IMG/VR virus record: IMGVR_UViG_3300024520_000343
Location: 1 to 30,661 of that record
Source: a virus
DNA length: 30,661 bases
Strand: one strand, 5' to 3'
This document shows, in pieces, positions 12,017 to 30,661 of the stretch. The position numbers and the translations under genes were made by a program. How positions within the stretch are numbered: position 1 is the stretch's first letter; every line of letters starts with the position of its first letter. Under the pieces are notes generated by a model, which was given only the letters and a program-made list of their open reading frames with translations, was not told the origin of the DNA and did not search any database.

Positions 12017-13417
12017 TCACCACTCATTTAAATGATTTATATTAGTTATACTATTAGGAATTAAAGCGTCCGTAAAATCATCGATCCTTCTATTGCTGAG
12101 ATAATTAAAACCACCTGTAAATCCATCAACCATATCGTCATGCGAGCCTTCAGGAAAGTTCTCTGCTTCAATGTAAAACTCCTCTTTATTGCGACAAGAT
12201 TTTAATATTTTAATATTCCCTGCTTCAGCTTGAGCACTTGCCGCCTTCGCTGCTGTAATCTTATCGACACTTATTTTCTCACTCACAACAGGGAAACCAG
12301 CAAGCATCCTAATAAAGTTTTCAATCTCATTTTTACCTGCTCCACCAGGATCTTGGAAACCTTTAACTGTAATATCAAGACCATCCTGCTTCGCAGTGTT
12401 AAGAATTAATTTTTCAACTTTTAAAGCAGAATATCTTTCCCGAACGACATCTAAAATATAATAAATCCCATCAGCATCCACTCCAATTTTAACCCCAACT
12501 GTCCAATCAGGATCACCTCGGTCACCATCGGTATGCTCAGTGGCGGCTCTATCCCAGCACCGAACAACGCTGGTTAGTCTTGGCACAGCTTCGACTTCTT
12601 CAAAATATTCTTTTTTAAAATAAATACCAGCGACCTCCTCAACATTCCAGTTTCCATCAAGTAACTGCATCCTTTCGACTTTTGATAAGGCTTGAAGATT
12701 TGCTTCATAAGTCGGGTCGCTCTGAACAAGGATTTTATTGTCCTCTAAACTTGCAGGAATAAATGTAAAACTTTTAGGTATCCCACCAGGGTATTTCTCT
12801 TTTAATAATTCAGCTGATGAATCCCAGACCAATTTATCATCCCACCTAATAAAATACCTTTTAACTCCCGACCTTTCAGGTATAGGAAACCCATTTTCGT
12901 CCAGAAACCATTCTACAAGTTTTCTTACCCAAGATTTAGCACTTGGATTTGTCGTAGCCCTTATATAAGGACGAATAGTTGAAACCGAACGATTTCTTGA
13001 AAGCATGTACCAAAATTGTTTTTCTGTGAAATGAGTAAGCTCGTCGAAGTAAATGATCGGGATTTGCGCCCCTTGCCAATCAAGGACGTTCTTATTGTAC
13101 TCTAAATGACTAAATTTTAATTTACATCCTGATGGGAAAGACCAAATCAAACTTGATTCTTTCGGTTCGGCTCCTAAATAACCATAAATTTTCTTAGAAG
13201 TATCCCAAAGACCACCTTCATTCCTAACTTGATTACTAGTCCTTCTAAAACAAACGGCACCAGCGTCTCGATTATTGTAATGCCTTAAAAAATCCAAAAG
13301 TAAGGCGAAGGTCTTCCCTCCCCCTGCTGCCCCACCATAAATACAAATATCAGCATCGCTTTTTAAAAAAGATTCTTGCGGCCCTGGCTGAGCTCCAATA
13401 ATTATACTATTAGTCAT
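12017..13417 (-). CDS. terL: Terminase large subunit
   Basis: This 466-residue DNA-packaging motor is an ATPase plus nuclease. Walker A GGAAGGGKT is at residues 28-36, Walker B and the catalytic acid are in IPIIYFDELTHF, and a coupling motif is likely at IRATTNPS. The RNase H-like nuclease has its acidic residues in VVRCWDRAATEH, FQDPGGAGKNE and SHDDMVDGF. Length is normal for the family. The gene overlaps the preceding small gene by 8 bases. AAGGGAG lies upstream of the ATG. Confidence 0.95.
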   Translation of the reverse strand: MTNSIIIGAQPGPQESFLKSDADICIYGGAAGGGKTFALLLDFLRHYNNRDAGAVCFRRTSNQVRNEGGLWDTSKKIYGYLGAEPKESSLIWSFPSGCKLKFSHLEYNKNVLDWQGAQIPIIYFDELTHFTEKQFWYMLSRNRSVSTIRPYIRATTNPSAKSWVRKLVEWFLDENGFPIPERSGVKRYFIRWDDKLVWDSSAELLKEKYPGGIPKSFTFIPASLEDNKILVQSDPTYEANLQALSKVERMQLLDGNWNVEEVAGIYFKKEYFEEVEAVPRLTSVVRCWDRAATEHTDGDRGDPDWTVGVKIGVDADGIYYILDVVRERYSALKVEKLILNTAKQDGLDITVKGFQDPGGAGKNEIENFIRMLAGFPVVSEKISVDKITAAKAASAQAEAGNIKILKSCRNKEEFYIEAENFPEGSHDDMVDGFTGGFNYLSNRRIDDFTDALIPNSITNINHLNEW

Positions 13418-13712
13418 TTAAATCAAGCTCCCTTTCAATCACCCTTTTCCGAAAACTTAAAACGTTTCCAATATCATCATCAACCTCATAAAGTTGGAAA
13501 TATTTTTCAAAGGTCTTCTGTTCAACGATCCAATACCCTGTTGTCGGCCCCTGCATAATATAATCGCCACCCTTTCCCGACACGAAAGGTTTACCTTCTT
13601 TATAAATATGAAAATCATCATGGATTTGAATTGCTTTAGTAAAATTGGCGCTTTTCTTAGTATAATACTCAAATGGTTTTTTATCTATGTCCTCATCAAA
13701 TATGATCCTCAT
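13410..13712 (-). CDS. Small PGDYG-like protein between methyltransferase and terminase
   Basis: This 100-residue protein has a C-terminal segment GKGGDYIMQGPTTGYWIVEQ then KTFEKYFQLYE. It resembles the short phage/bacterial PGDYG-type domain (a GDY turn followed by a strand, then an FExxY helix), usually of unknown function. The N-terminal 40 residues are not recognised. It overlaps its upstream neighbour by 17 bases and its downstream neighbour by 8, so it is tightly embedded in the packaging cluster. Confidence 0.55.
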   Translation of the reverse strand: MRIIFDEDIDKKPFEYYTKKSANFTKAIQIHDDFHIYKEGKPFVSGKGGDYIMQGPTTGYWIVEQKTFEKYFQLYEVDDDIGNVLSFRKRVIERELDLND

Positions 13713-14499
13713 GTTTTTTCATCCTTGATTTAAATTTAACCAATCTTTTCTTAGAAAGTTCATAAAAATGGTCTCCCATTTCGATGCCGATAAACCTTCT
13801 TTTGGTATTTAAAGCAGCAATTCCTGTGCTGCCACTTCCCATTGTAAAATCGAGAACTAAATCTCCCTTTAAAGAATAACTTTTAATTAGGAATTGAAGC
13901 AAGCCCGTTGGTTTTTGAGTTGGATGAACAGTTCTTGGTTCGCATGGATATCTTAAAACATTGTCTGGGAGGTTTTCAGCAGGCCTATAAAGCTTTCCAA
14001 TGCTAGACCCTGGGCCGGTGATACCCTGGCCATGTTTTCGGCTTTTTTTAACCTCTCCAACTTTCTTTATTTTCCCCAAAGTCATACCGATGGGATTATA
14101 GGTCATGCGATTGGGGCTCCCCACGTGGCACATCGAACCCGTACTAAAAACAGAAATTAATTCAACCGAGTTTAATGGTCGATTCTTTCCATGCATAAAA
14201 TGAGTTTTCTTATTTTTATGCCAATACCAATCATATTTATAATTATCAAAATTTGAGGCCCTTAATTTCGTACTAAAAGGTTCACACCCAAATAAACAAA
14301 TTGCGCCTTGAGGTTTTATAATTCGTTGAAGTTGATTCCACATCTCTTTTAAAGGAATTATAGAATCCCAAGGGCAGTTTGTTGTTCCATAAGGAGGGTC
14401 ACATAAAATAAGGTCGATGCTTTTGTCAGGAATTTCCCGTTTCATAACTTTTAGACAATCGCCTTTAAATAAACTTAAATTTCCATCCTTATAGCTCAA
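13696..14499 (-). CDS. DNA methyltransferase, beta-class N6-adenine/N4-cytosine type
   Basis: This 267-residue protein has the catalytic motif IV DPPY at residues 34-37, a target-recognition region in the middle, then HPTQKP and the AdoMet-binding motif I in DFTMGSGSTGIAAL near residue 220. The order IV, recognition region, X, I is the beta class. It probably methylates the phage genome to evade host restriction or adjust packaging. No partner nuclease is visible, so it is an orphan enzyme; the target site cannot be read from the sequence. The start is a TTG codon six bases after GGGAG, a rare codon but a good ribosome site. Confidence 0.9.
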   Translation of the reverse strand: MSYKDGNLSLFKGDCLKVMKREIPDKSIDLILCDPPYGTTNCPWDSIIPLKEMWNQLQRIIKPQGAICLFGCEPFSTKLRASNFDNYKYDWYWHKNKKTHFMHGKNRPLNSVELISVFSTGSMCHVGSPNRMTYNPIGMTLGKIKKVGEVKKSRKHGQGITGPGSSIGKLYRPAENLPDNVLRYPCEPRTVHPTQKPTGLLQFLIKSYSLKGDLVLDFTMGSGSTGIAALNTKRRFIGIEMGDHFYELSKKRLVKFKSRMKKHEDHI

Positions 14500-14502
14500 A
14501 AA

Positions 14503-14901
14503 TTACTCCCTATTGTTTGTTGGTATATTTAAAACTAAATTGGCGACCTGATTTTCTAAGCCCTTATCCATTGGACGATCTGACCATCCACAAAGGTTTT
14601 TTAGACAAAAAATCAACATAGTATTATCGCCATTCATGGCTTTATCAATCGCCTTTTTAACTAATCTCATTTTTACAGGAGCCATCTTGCGCTCCCTATA
14701 TTCTTTAAAAGTGCAGTTATGCATTTCTTTTATTCTACGATCGATGGTGTCTTCAGAAACTCCCATTATATCTGAAGCGACATCCTTCTGAGGCATAAAC
14801 TGTAAAATAGCGTTGAACTTCTCCCAATCAAAATCTACTCGTGGCTTCCCACCCTTTTTTTTAGTAGTAACTTTTTTGGTTTTTTTATTTTTAGTAGTCA
14901 T
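14503..14901 (-). CDS. Terminase small subunit-like DNA-binding protein
   Basis: This 132-residue protein has a basic start (KNKKTKKVTTKKKGGKPR), a helix-turn-helix (MPQKDVASDIMGVSEDTIDRR) and the helical core KMRLVKKAIDKAMNGDNTML followed by IFCLKNLCGWSDR, a segment highly typical of phage small terminases. It recognises the packaging site and loads the large subunit. A methyltransferase and a small gene separate it from the large subunit gene, a loose but known arrangement. Confidence 0.75.
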   Translation of the reverse strand: MTTKNKKTKKVTTKKKGGKPRVDFDWEKFNAILQFMPQKDVASDIMGVSEDTIDRRIKEMHNCTFKEYRERKMAPVKMRLVKKAIDKAMNGDNTMLIFCLKNLCGWSDRPMDKGLENQVANLVLNIPTNNRE

Positions 14902-14968
14902 TATTGCCCACCCGAAACCCTTTTTTGGTTGTTCTATACCGCTATTCTACCTTTTGGATAGGGCTTCT

Positions 14969-15502
14969 TCAATTTTGCCATTCGAAATTACATCTTGGAC
15001 AAACTGAAGGTTCTTTGTTTTCATTTATAGTTTGTTCTTGATTATCACCGCCAGGAATATTGTCGAGAGCGCCCAATCCATCATCCTCAAACATTTTTAA
15101 ACTTTCGGTATCAAAATCAGGGATACCTAAAAATTTCAAATCAGGAATTTCTAGCTCTTTTATATTTTCTAACATCTTACCGTGATCGTGATCGGAGAGT
15201 TCAGCTAAATGATTATCACTCTCCAAAAAAAGATATTCCTGGGCTTCGTTTTCAAACTCCTGGTAATCAACAGGAAAAGAATCCAAGCCCAAAGTTTTGG
15301 CTGCCTCTAAACGGCCATGGCCTGCTACTATAAAACCAGATTTTTTTGAAACGATTATTGGATGACGAATTCCTTGGAATGAAATTATTTCTGCCAAAAG
15401 TTTTATTTGTCGTTCTGGATGTCGATTTGTATTTTTTGGATGTGGGCATAAATTGGCGAGGGGAACTTCCTTCATAAAAGAACATTTTATTTCTGCGCTC
15501 AT
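14969..15502 (-). CDS. ParB-like nuclease/CTPase-fold domain protein
   Basis: This 177-residue protein has an N-terminal ParB/Srx domain: VPLANLCPHPKNTNRHPERQ, IISFQGIRHPIIVSK and GHGRLEAAKTLGLDSFPVDY (GHGR at 61-64). The C-terminal tail CPRCNFEWQ has a single CxxC, possibly half of a zinc site. Such proteins are often found beside phage terminases and methyltransferases; roles as nuclease, regulator or packaging aid have been proposed, none proven here. It is the first gene of the leftward late chain, with ribosome site AAAGGA. Confidence 0.8.
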   Translation of the reverse strand: MSAEIKCSFMKEVPLANLCPHPKNTNRHPERQIKLLAEIISFQGIRHPIIVSKKSGFIVAGHGRLEAAKTLGLDSFPVDYQEFENEAQEYLFLESDNHLAELSDHDHGKMLENIKELEIPDLKFLGIPDFDTESLKMFEDDGLGALDNIPGGDNQEQTINENKEPSVCPRCNFEWQN

Positions 15503-16275: not shown

Positions 16276-16557
16276 ATGAAAGAAAAAAGCGTTTTGGTTG
16301 TCGAAATTTGGCTTGGACAGCTTTTGCAGACAGGGAGAACGATTGCCGTTTGCACTAATAAAAAAATCGCCCTTCAACTTATAAATGACCTGATAAAAGA
16401 ACGAAAGGCTTCTAAAGAGCCTATCGATTATAACACTTTTTCTGCTCGAATCAAAAAAAATGGACACTGCGAAGTATATACAGATTTTGGAACGATTTTT
16501 GTAATTAGGTACAAATTAAATGAAATATACCCAATAGATGGAGTAACGAAATTTTAA
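16276..16557 (+). CDS. Unknown early protein ending in PIDGVTKF
   Basis: This 93-residue protein starts at the ATG at 16276 after AAGGAGGAGGAG. It has a strand-rich start (SVLVVEIWLGQLLQTGRTIA), a helix (KKIALQLINDLIKERKASK) and strands (GHCEVYTDFGTIFVIRYKLN). No family recognised. Its last eight residues, PIDGVTKF, and the DNA behind them are identical to the end of the next gene. Confidence 0.6.
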   Translation: MKEKSVLVVEIWLGQLLQTGRTIAVCTNKKIALQLINDLIKERKASKEPIDYNTFSARIKKNGHCEVYTDFGTIFVIRYKLNEIYPIDGVTKF

Positions 16558-16558
16558 C
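16531..16558 (+). repeat. 28-bp direct repeat, copy 1 (gene end)
   Basis: This starts CCAATAGATGGAGTAACGAA and runs through the stop codon. It is identical over 28 bp to 16768-16795, 237 bp (79 codons) downstream. It encodes PIDGVTKF plus stop. Confidence 0.9.
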
Positions 16559-16572
16559 CTCGGGAGGATGAT

Positions 16573-16794
16573 ATGAAAAAGAAAAAAAGATTTAATAGAG
16601 TCATTATCAAAATTTTACCTGACGAAGTAGTTAAACAAAATGTAGCGCAATTGAGAATGCTTTTATTACTTCTTGGTCAGTTAAATGTTGATAAACGCCA
16701 CATCTTACGTTTAACAAAAATTTGGGAAAGTTCTCAAAGCCAAGAGGCCCTTCAAATGTTTAATCTGCCAATAGATGGAGTAACGAAATTTTAA
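16573..16794 (+). CDS. Small basic early protein ending in PIDGVTKF
   Basis: This 73-residue protein starts MKKKKRFNRVIIKILPDEVV, continues with a leucine-rich helix (AQLRMLLLLLGQLNVDKRHI) and ends with the same PIDGVTKF as its upstream neighbour. A GGGAGG site precedes the ATG. No family recognised. The sequence before the shared tail is unrelated to the neighbour by eye, so only the 3' end was copied. Confidence 0.6.
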   Translation: MKKKKRFNRVIIKILPDEVVKQNVAQLRMLLLLLGQLNVDKRHILRLTKIWESSQSQEALQMFNLPIDGVTKF

Positions 16795-16795
16795 C
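16768..16795 (+). repeat. 28-bp direct repeat, copy 2 (gene end)
   Basis: This is the exact second copy of 16531-16558, again ending one base after a TAA stop codon. The sequences flanking the two copies differ immediately on both sides. Confidence 0.9.
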
Positions 16796-19145: not shown

Positions 19146-19556
19146 TTAAAGATGCAATGCTTTTTTAACTTCTAAAATACTAGAAACGAAAAAAGCTTTG
19201 CCTCCCATCACCTTCACTCTCTTTTGAAACTCGATTTGCCTTCTAAAATGGCGCTCTTTTTTATTTTTGAGACCCCACGCTGGAGTAAGGCTAAGCCTTT
19301 CCTTATGGATCTCATAAAAACGAATCGAAGTCGGCGTTTTAACTTCAAAGGCATGAAAAACTCCCTTATAAAGACCTAAAATATCTGATGTTCCTTTAAG
19401 ATAAAATCTAGAATTATGCTTCCTCATCGATTTACCATCATAAAATCCTGATGCCTGATTTTTCCAAAAAAAGGCATCATGGAGAGTATTAAGATAAAAA
19501 AGGATGGTCTCCTCAATTTCACTTTCCTTTAGACGTGGCTTCCGAATAGTTCCCAT
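19146..19556 (-). CDS. VRR-NUC domain nuclease
   Basis: This 136-residue protein has the PD-(D/E)XK-type VRR-NUC layout: ESEIEETILFYLN, then FYLKGTSDILGLYKGVFHAF followed by EVKTP. That gives the G-x-x-D-x-x-G motif, the E-x-K catalytic pair and a C-terminal helix-strand RVKVMGGKAFFVSSILEVKK. Stand-alone VRR-NUC proteins in phages are structure-specific nucleases, often thought to resolve branched DNA. It overlaps the preceding gene by 38 bases and ends the leftward replication block. Confidence 0.8.
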   Translation of the reverse strand: MGTIRKPRLKESEIEETILFYLNTLHDAFFWKNQASGFYDGKSMRKHNSRFYLKGTSDILGLYKGVFHAFEVKTPTSIRFYEIHKERLSLTPAWGLKNKKERHFRRQIEFQKRVKVMGGKAFFVSSILEVKKALHL

Positions 19557-19893
19557 TGCGACACTCTTTTTTTATGGCCAATTTAATAATAAAAGATTCA
19601 AAACTATTATAGATTTTTGGTAACTCTACTTCGAACAGATGATTTTCTAAAATATATAATGATAAATCCTTAAAATATTCACTCTCCTCTTCAGTAAGAT
19701 CCCTCCTCTGGTTTTCAATTAAAAGAAAACGGAATTTTAATAAAATTATTTTTTCTTTTATTAATAGATCTCCCCAAAGGAACTCTCCAAAAATACTATC
19801 TCCAAAATCCTTCCAAGCCTTACCCACGATTAAAGAGCCTGGGATACCTTCCTCATGAAGTTTTATCTGTATACCTCTTAATGCCTCTATCAT
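19519..19893 (-). CDS. Unknown protein of the replication block
   Basis: This 124-residue protein is mostly helical (MIEALRGIQIKLHEEGIPGS, EKIILLKFRFLLIENQRRDL, EEESEYFKDLSLYILENHLF). No family recognised. It lies between the ATPase and the nuclease, overlapping the first by 4 bases (ATGA) and the second by 38, so translation is coupled. A role in replication, such as a helicase partner, is inferred from context only. Confidence 0.55.
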   Translation of the reverse strand: MIEALRGIQIKLHEEGIPGSLIVGKAWKDFGDSIFGEFLWGDLLIKEKIILLKFRFLLIENQRRDLTEEESEYFKDLSLYILENHLFEVELPKIYNSFESFIIKLAIKKECRNGNYSEATSKGK

Positions 19894-20741
19894 AACACGT
19901 TCCTTTGTTTAAAATTATCTTTCATTTCTACGAAGTCAATGGCCCGATCTTTTATGTATAAATTCATTTCTTTATTAAAGTCTAAATGAAACATTTTTGA
20001 TTCAACCGATTGTCCTCTGTGTTTAGTAATCCTGAGAGTTGGATAATAAAAATCATTAAGTTGAAAACGTTGTAAGATATAGCAGTACTGAACGATGTTG
20101 ATGATTGATTTACAACCTCTAATATCGTTCATAGAAATTAGGCGGTGAGAGTTTTCTGTAACATCAGCACCAGTATGTGCGACCATAATAAAAGGTTTTT
20201 TGCATTTCGAGGCTTCTTCTTTTAATTCTTTTACAAATAAAGATTGAACATCAATCTTTTGATCCATGTAAAACTCAGAAGTAGTCAGATTATCAAAAAA
20301 AATCAAATCGATTCTTTTATCATTTACCATTTCTTGAAAATAGGCCCATTTAACACCTCTGCGTTCAAATTTAATTAACTCTGGGAAGTTCATTTCAGAA
20401 TGTATCAATAATTTTCTAAAAAGAACTTTGGCATCATCTTTAGAAAAGGTTTTAAGCGCCATCGAAAATTCAATTAGGAAATCATTTTCCGTTTCTTCGG
20501 AAAGCCAGATCAAAATTTTTTTATCTTTGTCACATCTTTTAAGGGCATCGATTAAAAGGCTTCTCATTAGCGTGGATTTCCCCCCGTGAGCCACGCCCAG
20601 GTACAAATGAAGGTTACCAGGCCTATGTCCCTTATGTTCAGTTAAAAAATGGTATCCCGAATGCCAATAGGTTTTTTCTCTCTCCTTTAAAAGTTCAAAA
20701 ATTTCATGAATCGATTCTTCATTAATCTCTTTCAATATCAT
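19890..20741 (-). CDS. RecA/DnaB-fold ATPase, probable replicative helicase-like protein
   Basis: This 283-residue protein has Walker A GVAHGGKST at residues 49-57, an arginine-rich ILIWLSEETENDF strand (motif 1a position), Walker B IDLIFFDNLTTSE, a PFIMVAHTGAD motif, and NDIRGCKSIINIVQYCYILQ with TLRITKHRG as in DnaB/RecA-like SF4 motors. It has no DnaB N-terminal domain or primase part. It may be a minimal helicase or helicase loader working with the initiator. AGGAGG touches the ATG directly; a TTG at codon 3 would be ideally spaced, so translation may start there (20735). Confidence 0.8.
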   Translation of the reverse strand: MILKEINEESIHEIFELLKEREKTYWHSGYHFLTEHKGHRPGNLHLYLGVAHGGKSTLMRSLLIDALKRCDKDKKILIWLSEETENDFLIEFSMALKTFSKDDAKVLFRKLLIHSEMNFPELIKFERRGVKWAYFQEMVNDKRIDLIFFDNLTTSEFYMDQKIDVQSLFVKELKEEASKCKKPFIMVAHTGADVTENSHRLISMNDIRGCKSIINIVQYCYILQRFQLNDFYYPTLRITKHRGQSVESKMFHLDFNKEMNLYIKDRAIDFVEMKDNFKQRNVL

Positions 20742-20777: not shown

Positions 20778-21770
20778 CTATGAAGGTTTACAACCTTGTC
20801 TTTTGAAAAAATTCTCAAGATCATCGTCGAGAGTTGTTTCCTTTTTCTCATTTAAATAATTTTCAAAATTTTTGGCGGAGAATAATGTTGCAGGTCTCAA
20901 ATAATTTATGCCTGGTGTGCCATTTTTAAAAACAATATTTTTCCATTGTGCAGTCTTTAAATCGATGATCTTTTTAAAATCTGAAAGAGTATAATTTTCA
21001 TTTAACCTCGCAATAATATTTTTAGAATTACTCGAAGCACCAACCTTGAATTTCTTACCTGTTTTTTCGTTCAAATAATGGAGAATTTCCTGGGCCATAA
21101 TGACTTTAATTTGAGGGCTTGGCTTCCCTCCCCTGCCCTTTATCCCAGTTTCACTTTTCGCCGGCAAATCAGGCGCTTTCTGGCCTAATAATGGCGGAGG
21201 GCTCGCAAGATCACTGCCTGGATTTGGCAAATCTGAAGGATAAACCAATGCGCCAATTTTTTTTCTTACAAATTCCAAGTTTGAATTTTTGTCATTTTTG
21301 GTTTTTTCGGATTCTTCTTTTAATATAATTAATTTATTAATTATAGAATATATAGAGGCCGCACTGTGCTTGTGCGCTGTAGATGTACAAAAAGCCCTCG
21401 AGGATGCTGCGGTGTGGATGTACGAAACGCCATCGGGTTTTAGGGGCTTTGTTGCGGTGTAGATGTCGTTTTGTACCTCGAGATTTTGGCCGTTTTCATT
21501 GCACAAAATTGAAAATCTTACTTCTAATAAAAAGGCGCTTTTTTCAGTCTTCATTTTGATTAATTTCTCCTCGCATAATTCAGTTAAAGTGGATTTTAGT
21601 TTTCTTCTTTTTATACCCAAGTTCTTAGAAATTTCATTCAGCTTTACAGAAAAGAATTTTTTACCTTTAATATCAGCTTCGTTTCTTTTCTCTCGAAGGT
21701 AAAAAAGGATTGCTGCTTTCAATAATCCTTGCTTCTCGATGTCACTTTTCCTTAAGACCAAAAAAGTCAT
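20778..21770 (-). CDS. Replication initiator, winged helix plus Phg_2220_C-type domain
   Basis: This 330-residue protein has an N-terminal winged helix (about 1-90: AAILFYLREKRNEADIKGKK, ISKNLGIKRRKLKSTLTELC), a low-complexity linker and a C-terminal domain from about 220 to 310. That domain fits the conserved phage C-terminus Phg_2220_C: ILHYLNEKTGKKFKVG, NENYTLSDFKKIIDLKTAQW, NYLRPATLFSAKNFENYLNE. This layout is known for phage replisome organisers that bind the origin and recruit the helicase. I start at the ATG 21768-21770, five bases after AAGGAG. The linker-coding DNA contains repeats that may be the origin. Confidence 0.85.
   Translation of the reverse strand: MTFLVLRKSDIEKQGLLKAAILFYLREKRNEADIKGKKFFSVKLNEISKNLGIKRRKLKSTLTELCEEKLIKMKTEKSAFLLEVRFSILCNENGQNLEVQNDIYTATKPLKPDGVSYIHTAASSRAFCTSTAHKHSAASIYSIINKLIILKEESEKTKNDKNSNLEFVRKKIGALVYPSDLPNPGSDLASPPPLLGQKAPDLPAKSETGIKGRGGKPSPQIKVIMAQEILHYLNEKTGKKFKVGASSNSKNIIARLNENYTLSDFKKIIDLKTAQWKNIVFKNGTPGINYLRPATLFSAKNFENYLNEKKETTLDDDLENFFKRQGCKPS
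21318..21466. other. Candidate replication origin inside the initiator gene
   Basis: Three 14-bp direct repeats of the form TGCGGTGTAGATGT lie at 21373-21386 (one change), 21408-21421 (one change) and 21453-21466. Next to them, 21318-21345 is 28 consecutive A/T bases, continued by more A+T, which could be the unwinding element. Iterons plus an A+T-rich element in the linker of the initiator gene is the origin layout of several phages with this type of initiator. Repeats and A/T run are seen; origin function is inferred. Confidence 0.6.
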
Positions 21771-21779
21771 TCCGTCTCC

Positions 21780-21836
21780 TTGACAACTAATCAATATTTT
21801 ATAATCATTATGAAATTATTTCCTTCAAGGAGTCAA
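21780..21836. promoter_or_regulatory. Overlapping divergent promoters at the replication genes
   Basis: Leftward: TTGACT (complement of 21831-21836), 18 bp, then CATAAT (complement of 21807-21812), pointing to the initiator gene. Rightward: TTGACA at 21780-21785 and TATAAT at 21800-21805, both perfect but only 14 bp apart, so a different -35 may be used. The two promoters share the same 57 bp and would interfere with each other. Confidence 0.55.
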
Positions 21837-29024: not shown

Positions 29025-30293
29025 TTAGGCTACTTTAGAAGTACCTATAACAGCGAAACCGACCAGACTAGAGGCGCCTGAAATATCTATAAAGCCATCA
29101 CCTATGTCGTTTCCAATTTGTCTTAATTTTAATATCGTTGTAAATCTTTTTGCATTTTCTTTTATTTCAATAATTTTAAAAGCAATATTCCTTTCAATAA
29201 ATGAAGAGCCGAAGGCATGAGGTAAAGGTGTTACGGCATCGTCAATAGTAGCGTCACCGACAACAGGATAAAACTTAATATAAGGCTTAAGTCTTAATGG
29301 GTAGTCGATTAAGACTTGATCTAATAATTTTGAGTTTCTAACTAAAGACGTTTCAACCTCAACTTCCAATTCTATTTTAGGGAATTTAAACTCATTACTT
29401 AATTTACTTGCAATGGAGAGTTGAGTCGATTCGGTTGTAATAAAATCTAGACTTACAGTTTTTTGCTTATAACCATAGTCCTCGACATAATTAGTTTCAA
29501 CTGATGCCTGTTGGCCGACCTTAACAACGGTAAAAAGCCTTTGTTTCCCATCATTAAATTTATTAATTTTTAAAATGTTTTGTCGGCCTCTTTGAGAGTA
29601 TGGCCCAAACAATTCTAATGAGGCACCTGATGTAACATCCCTAGATTTAATTTCCATTGTGTCGGTTGAATCAATTATAAAAACTGAATTGGTTGCAATT
29701 AATAATTTTGCTAACCCATCACGAGTGGAAATATTATCAAATTTTGAACCATCATCAATTATAATGTCATTTGATGGATTTATTTTAGAGGCATCAAATG
29801 TTAAAACGGTTGTTATATCAGCCTTATTCAATATTTGTTCTAGGGCAGTTTTGGCAACGGTCCCATTATTAATAGTTCCCGCTGGAATCCTTGCCGTTCT
29901 AATAACCGAATCAAAAGATAAAACTCTAAAAGTTAATTCTTCATTTTCAAAATTTTCTCTCGTGCCCTCTTCGTTTATAAGGCCTCTAAAAACATCAACG
30001 GCACCATTAACATCATTATATTCGATTCTAACTTTCGTTAAGTCCCTACTATAAGTAAAGATAGACCTATGGTCGTGAATCTGTGAAAGGTAACCATCTT
30101 TATTAATCGCTTTAAGAGTTACGTCTCCATAATAAAAAACGCCTATGTCATAGTCCCCAGCGTCAATGCTTTTTCTCATCGAAGAGACACCGGAATCAAT
30201 AATTTTAGCAGAAACTTCTATTTCATCGGCATAAGTCGTGGCCGTTAATTTTGGAGTAAAATAGATTTTATAATGAATTGGAGTTATCGCCAT
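29025..30293 (-). CDS. Tail hub / baseplate protein (Tal-like)
   Basis: This 422-residue protein follows the distal tail gene (across the circle junction) and precedes the fibre gene, as expected of the tail-tip hub. It is strand-rich (LTATTYADEIEVSAKIIDSG, VRIEYNDVNGAVDVFRGLIN, LTFRVLSFDSVIRTARIPAG) with late LQQ/KLR-type strands (FTTILKLRQIGND). The ribosome site before the ATG is an AGAGGA core. The gp27-like fold is an inference from position and strand pattern. Confidence 0.6.
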   Translation of the reverse strand: MAITPIHYKIYFTPKLTATTYADEIEVSAKIIDSGVSSMRKSIDAGDYDIGVFYYGDVTLKAINKDGYLSQIHDHRSIFTYSRDLTKVRIEYNDVNGAVDVFRGLINEEGTRENFENEELTFRVLSFDSVIRTARIPAGTINNGTVAKTALEQILNKADITTVLTFDASKINPSNDIIIDDGSKFDNISTRDGLAKLLIATNSVFIIDSTDTMEIKSRDVTSGASLELFGPYSQRGRQNILKINKFNDGKQRLFTVVKVGQQASVETNYVEDYGYKQKTVSLDFITTESTQLSIASKLSNEFKFPKIELEVEVETSLVRNSKLLDQVLIDYPLRLKPYIKFYPVVGDATIDDAVTPLPHAFGSSFIERNIAFKIIEIKENAKRFTTILKLRQIGNDIGDGFIDISGASSLVGFAVIGTSKVA

Positions 30294-30661
30294 TTTATCC
30301 TCTTAAACGTGTGAAACTAATTCTAAACCACCGAGGTCCATTGGGTTAGTATAGATATTTTTTAAATATTTTAATCTATACCCTTTTATGACTTGAACCA
30401 ATTTTGCGTCTTTTAATCTAAATCCAGGGATTGCGGTTGTAAAATGTTTTGATTCATATCGTCCACCGCATGGATAAATGATAAAGGGTGACTCACTCTC
30501 CAAAAGAGTAATAGCCAGATCAATGTCGACATTATAAACGGAACTAGTAGGATAATTTTTAAACTTAATGGAATATCCCATTGTTTCGAGTGATTTTTGA
30601 ACACTATACCGCCCCGATAAAGTTTTTTTAGATCTTGAATTCCTATCTACACTAATTTTTG
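30254..30661. repeat. Right copy of the imperfect terminal duplication
   Basis: This aligns gap-free to 1-408 with 16 substitutions. It covers the start of the tail hub gene, the 9-bp spacer and the 3' end of the distal tail gene. The encoded protein is identical to the left copy; the differences are third-position or otherwise silent changes. Confidence 0.85.
30303..30661 (-). CDS. Distal tail protein, 3' part cut by the window edge
   Basis: These are the last 118 codons plus stop of the distal tail gene, reading in from beyond the window end. The residues are the same as in the complete gene at 50-886, including MGYSIKFKNYPTSSVYNVDI and the ending GGLELVSHV, despite twelve base differences. 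It is not a separate gene: joining the window ends restores one copy. Confidence 0.8.
   Translation of the reverse strand, partial: KISVDRNSRSKKTLSGRYSVQKSLETMGYSIKFKNYPTSSVYNVDIDLAITLLESESPFIIYPCGGRYESKHFTTAIPGFRLKDAKLVQVIKGYRLKYLKNIYTNPMDLGGLELVSHV

Follow-up and report, generated by a model that had tools for sequence, protein, structure and literature searches.

An iteron-type replication origin probably embedded in the PF09524 initiator gene of a phage-like genome

The gene for the replication initiator of a phage-like genome very probably carries the origin from which the phage replicates. Three iterons and an A/T-rich tract lie in the middle of this gene (Table 1) and, judged from the sequence, would form an iteron-type theta origin bound by the initiator that the same gene encodes. 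The window analysed here is a phage-like record of 30,661 bp in its full length. Read along the gene, the layout runs from a predicted winged helix through the three iterons and the melting tract to the C-terminal domain. The N-terminal winged helix of the protein would bind the three mid-gene iterons, the bound array would destabilize the adjoining A/T tract, and the C-terminal domain would recruit to the opened DNA a replication partner, which is probably the P-loop protein of the gene next downstream. That the initiator binds the repeats, melts the tract, and delivers the P-loop partner is suggested by the layout and by the family to which it belongs; directly observed are the layout itself, how rare it is, its presence at the same place in relatives whose iterons differ, and the conservation of the repeats out of frame.

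Table 1. Features of the putative origin region and its neighbouring gene (positions in the window).
Feature	Coordinates	Strand	Remarks
Initiator (replisome organiser) gene	20778-21770	minus	330 aa; ATG at 21770; Shine-Dalgarno AAGGAG at 21776-21781
Iteron, first in gene order	21453-21466		TGCGGTGTAGATGT on the plus strand
Iteron, second in gene order	21408-21421		TGCGGTGTGGATGT on the plus strand
Iteron, third in gene order	21373-21386		TGCGCTGTAGATGT on the plus strand; in another frame than the remaining two
Proposed DNA-unwinding element	21305-21354		contains the A/T run 21318-21345; least stable 50 bp of the record
RecA-fold P-loop protein, next gene downstream	19890-20741	minus	phrog_19, DnaB-like helicase, E 5.8e-12

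The mechanical open reading frame of the initiator begins with a TTG codon at 21794. The ATG listed in Table 1, picked by eye from the sequence, is the better start, with AAGGAG ahead of it. The protein consists of an N-terminal predicted winged helix (approximately residues 16-95), a disordered linker, and a C-terminal Phg_2220_C domain (residues 237-315). This last domain is matched by PF09524 with an E value of 6.8e-23 (81 bits against a cut-off of 27), TIGR02220 scores 93 bits against a cut-off of 66.65, and the best PHROG is phrog_428, replication initiation protein (E 4.5e-32). To our knowledge, the PF09524 initiators are a large and little studied family. For the N-terminus, AlphaFold gives an H-H-E-H-H-E-E fold with low to moderate confidence (pLDDT ~60-75); the best structural matches of this model are mostly winged-helix regulators, all with nonsignificant E values above 0.08, and the matches of the protein to HTH profiles remain below threshold. 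The initial annotation had placed the repeats between the winged-helix and C-terminal domains, and this placement is confirmed, for a predicted winged helix, by the profile matches together with the AlphaFold model.

Three 14-bp repeats spaced by 35 and 45 bp, beside 28 uninterrupted A/T bases, had also been described in that annotation, and both features were recovered: the copies start at 21373, 21408, and 21453, and the A/T bases occupy 21318-21345. No further site within three mismatches of the 14-mer was found on either strand of the window. No other 14-mer triplet of such quality within 110 bp exists in the 30.7-kb record, and a comparable one never arose when the whole record was dinucleotide-shuffled 200 times. 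The A/T run is the longest in the record; it was discarded as evidence on its own, since 40 of 300 Markov genomes (13%) carry a run of 28 bp. Nearest-neighbour energies also place here the 30-mer (start 21324) and the 50-mer (start 21305) of lowest stability in the record. Counting against an origin, the array is small, with three iterons of only 14 bp.

Initiators often autoregulate at their own iterons, and both this habit and the position of the repeats, approximately 300 bp inside the gene, would suit an operator through which the gene represses or modulates its own transcription, the true origin lying elsewhere. Such an operator is unlikely, given that a promoter scan of the region counted no more sites than in shuffles, that an adjoining least-stable tract is expected of an origin and not of an operator, that the record contains no other iteron set, and that the origins annotated or genetically suggested in relatives lie at the same place.

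What is conserved at the repeats is the DNA and not the peptide, because the copies fall in two reading frames. In the codons of the gene, the copies at 21453 and 21408 divide into xAC-ATC-TAC/CAC-ACC-GCA, and the copy at 21373 divides into ACA-TCT-ACA-GCG-CA. The initial annotation had drawn the same conclusion from the low complexity of the encoded residues; the conclusion holds, but that argument is weaker than the different frame of the third copy. The encoded residues lie inside a stretch (85-224) that AlphaFold models with very low confidence. Two copies share a frame and encode I-Y/H-T-A, which could be taken for a peptide repeat needed in the linker or for drift of low-complexity coding DNA. 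This is the least probable of the alternatives and is largely refuted by the frame of the third copy; in addition, protein-preserving codon shuffles never recreated the triplet (0/60 and 0/100 in two runs), and in such relatives as L068, L011, L041, and L137 the copies are spread over all three frames.

The origin assignment is further informed by a survey of 38 nonredundant PF09524 initiators from viral contigs, bacterial genome contigs, and named phages; as controls, 121 other ORFs of comparable length were taken from these loci. Triplets of a 12-mer with at most two mismatches were detected in 20 of the 38 initiators and in 2 of the 121 control ORFs (P 5e-13), and triplets with copies in mixed frames in 11 and 1, respectively (P 4e-7). 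All 20 triplets are located in the linker, upstream of the C-terminal domain. In 15 of these 20 genes, the AT-richest 40-mer follows the second iteron (expected 28%, P 2e-5). Some of the 20 triplets are weak or explicable by repetitive codons, as in L076, where 82 of 100 codon shuffles recreate it, and about half of the surveyed relatives are without a strong triplet. As a positive control, the detector found the iterons of lambda O, in three frames; it missed the TP901-1 array, so that an absent triplet is no evidence of an absent origin.

An unwinding-element motif common to the whole family, TACAAGTA, was considered and rejected, as it is limited to one Staphylococcus/Macrococcus/Butyrivibrio-type group and is missing from the window. 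As a separate observation, an AT-rich element, AATAATACAAGTATTAATAATACAAGTA..., occurs in the initiator linker of five loci (L007, L008, L013, L040, and L147). It is near-identical across initiators of Staphylococcus, Macrococcus-like, and Butyrivibrio phages, the adjoining iterons of which differ, and it may be a conserved unwinding element.

The closest relatives of the window are two metagenomic contigs, L048 and L049, in which the P-loop protein is 77% identical to that of the window. A profile search with this protein for additional relatives returned only these two once more; near-relative DNA sought in the phage collection was not found. Where the window has its array, the initiators of both contigs contain three iterons with 33-bp spacing and, after them, an A/T run of 25 bp. 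Their iterons (GAGTCATTGCAGTGTAAT... in L049 and GTCATTCCAGTG... in L048) are unrelated in sequence to those of the window. Between L048 and L049, one iteron base is changed alike in all three copies (CATTCCAG versus CATTGCAG), and this shared change alters the encoded residue, which points to a concerted change at the level of DNA.

These comparisons suggest a rapid and apparently matched turnover of the iterons and the DNA-binding domain. A wider proposal can be put forward tentatively, namely that in PF09524 initiator genes the iterons evolve quickly and in step with the DNA-binding domain encoded by the same gene, so that near relatives lose recognition of each other's origins. It is prompted by the fact that the window and L048/L049 keep the partner protein and, in L049, the C-terminal domain (61% identity), but differ wholly in their iterons, and by the identity with L049 of only 38% in the N-terminal domain (23-25% in the linker). 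It is also prompted by the Staphylococcus group, in which, by eye, the DNA-binding region of prophage initiators comes in two alleles that go with two alleles of the iteron, TTAATACCCCTATTAA and TCAATACCCCTATTGA; the iteron alleles differ symmetrically, with changes in both half-sites. If true, origin specificity would follow a natural code, perhaps shaped by co-infecting phages or satellites interfering with one another. The window, L048, L049, and the Staphylococcus alleles provide matched initiator/iteron pairs from which origin recognition in this family might be decoded.

The gene downstream of the initiator encodes a P-loop protein which resembles the core of a DnaB-type helicase and has no room for the N-terminal domain of DnaB. 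Its AAA_25 match is under the cut-off, a PDB sequence search with it gave no match, and its AlphaFold model has a pLDDT of 41 and no usable fold. By its sequence, it is a probable helicase or helicase-delivery partner. As regards the helicase or helicase-loader gene looked for beside an in-gene origin, the phrog_19 match indicates one here. Further downstream, a small ORF (19146-19556) is weakly similar to RecU and phage Holliday-junction resolvases and probably belongs to a replication/recombination operon.

The two ends of the record (1-408 and 30254-30661) share an overlap of 409 bp, in which 13 mismatches leave an identity of 96%; the genome is therefore considered near-complete and circularly closing. 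Two strain variants were probably joined at this overlap. The cumulative GC skew, which the earlier reading had proposed as a check, proved uninformative for this record because, on both flanks of the site, the skew follows gene orientation, with negative values where genes lie on the minus strand and positive values where they lie on the plus strand; it was thus set aside as a mark of a replichore boundary there.

Packaging and recombination sites can also lie within phage genes, and for this reason the repeats could be ascribed a role in packaging initiation, recombination, or some further DNA function. Such a role is very unlikely: the gene for the terminase large subunit (12017-13417) is far away, no att or integrase context is seen here, and across the family the arrays are restricted to the initiator gene. 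Elsewhere in the record, the neighbours of the terminase genes include a ParB-N-like protein together with an N6/N4 DNA methyltransferase (13696-15502). Each of the two aligns to its own part of the profile of the DNA methyltransferase family phrog_498, so that fused relatives may exist. A perfect direct repeat of 28 bp (16531-16558 and 16768-16795) lies at the ends of two adjacent small ORFs and encodes the identical C-terminal peptide PIDGVTKF both times.

An origin inside the initiator gene is a known arrangement, present in lambda and many other phages, of which the window is a clear further example. The likeness to in-gene phage origins noted in the initial annotation is supported, since the features expected of such an origin are all present at the sequence level and the layout recurs, with unrelated iterons, in L048/L049 and in the PF09524 family, among them genes whose origins are annotated or suggested by genetics. 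The precedents of lambda, 80alpha, phiJB, TP901-1, Tuc2009, and KIRK make this layout already known in kind; here it is extended to an otherwise undescribed phage lineage. An in-gene origin guides annotators in placing the ori, and it also implies that deletion or recoding of the gene destroys the origin.

In the textbook case of lambda, iterons and an AT-rich tract are located in the middle of gene O (PMC7466680). The window shares with lambda the position of these elements mid-initiator, between the DNA-binding and partner-binding halves, as well as iterons in mixed frames and a partner gene next downstream, which in lambda serves helicase loading. Conversely, lambda has four 18-bp sites with a spacing of ~20-24 bp, whereas the window has three 14-bp sites with spacings of 35 and 45 bp, its C-terminal domain is Phg_2220_C, and its downstream partner is a DnaB-like P-loop protein and not lambda P.

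The organisers of the lactococcal P335 phages TP901-1 and Tuc2009, initiators of another kind, are reported to bind direct repeats within the gene that encodes each of them, the repeats acting as ori (cited in PMC8965321). ORF11 of the lactococcal P335 phage r1t is a PF09524 family member, and the repeats of TP901-1, Tuc2009, and r1t are unlike those of the window. The records of the Staphylococcus phages 80alpha and phiJB annotate an origin within the PF09524 gene (ORF20). In 80alpha, complementation in trans failed to make up for the loss of ORF20, and the authors interpret this as an ori embedded there (PMC5499656). These two phages share with the window the family of the C-terminal domain and the location of the annotated origin in the DNA that encodes the initiator linker, but their iterons and N-terminal domain are unrelated, and a DnaC-like loader follows in place of the DnaB-core protein. 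A putative origin has also been placed inside ORF43, a Phg_2220_C gene, of the Francisella phage vB_FhiM_KIRK (PMC7924643). Its four sites are of other sequence and are a prediction only; nevertheless, this phage of a Gram-negative host (PMC7924643) presents, like the window, a repeat array and AT-rich DNA within a Phg_2220_C gene.
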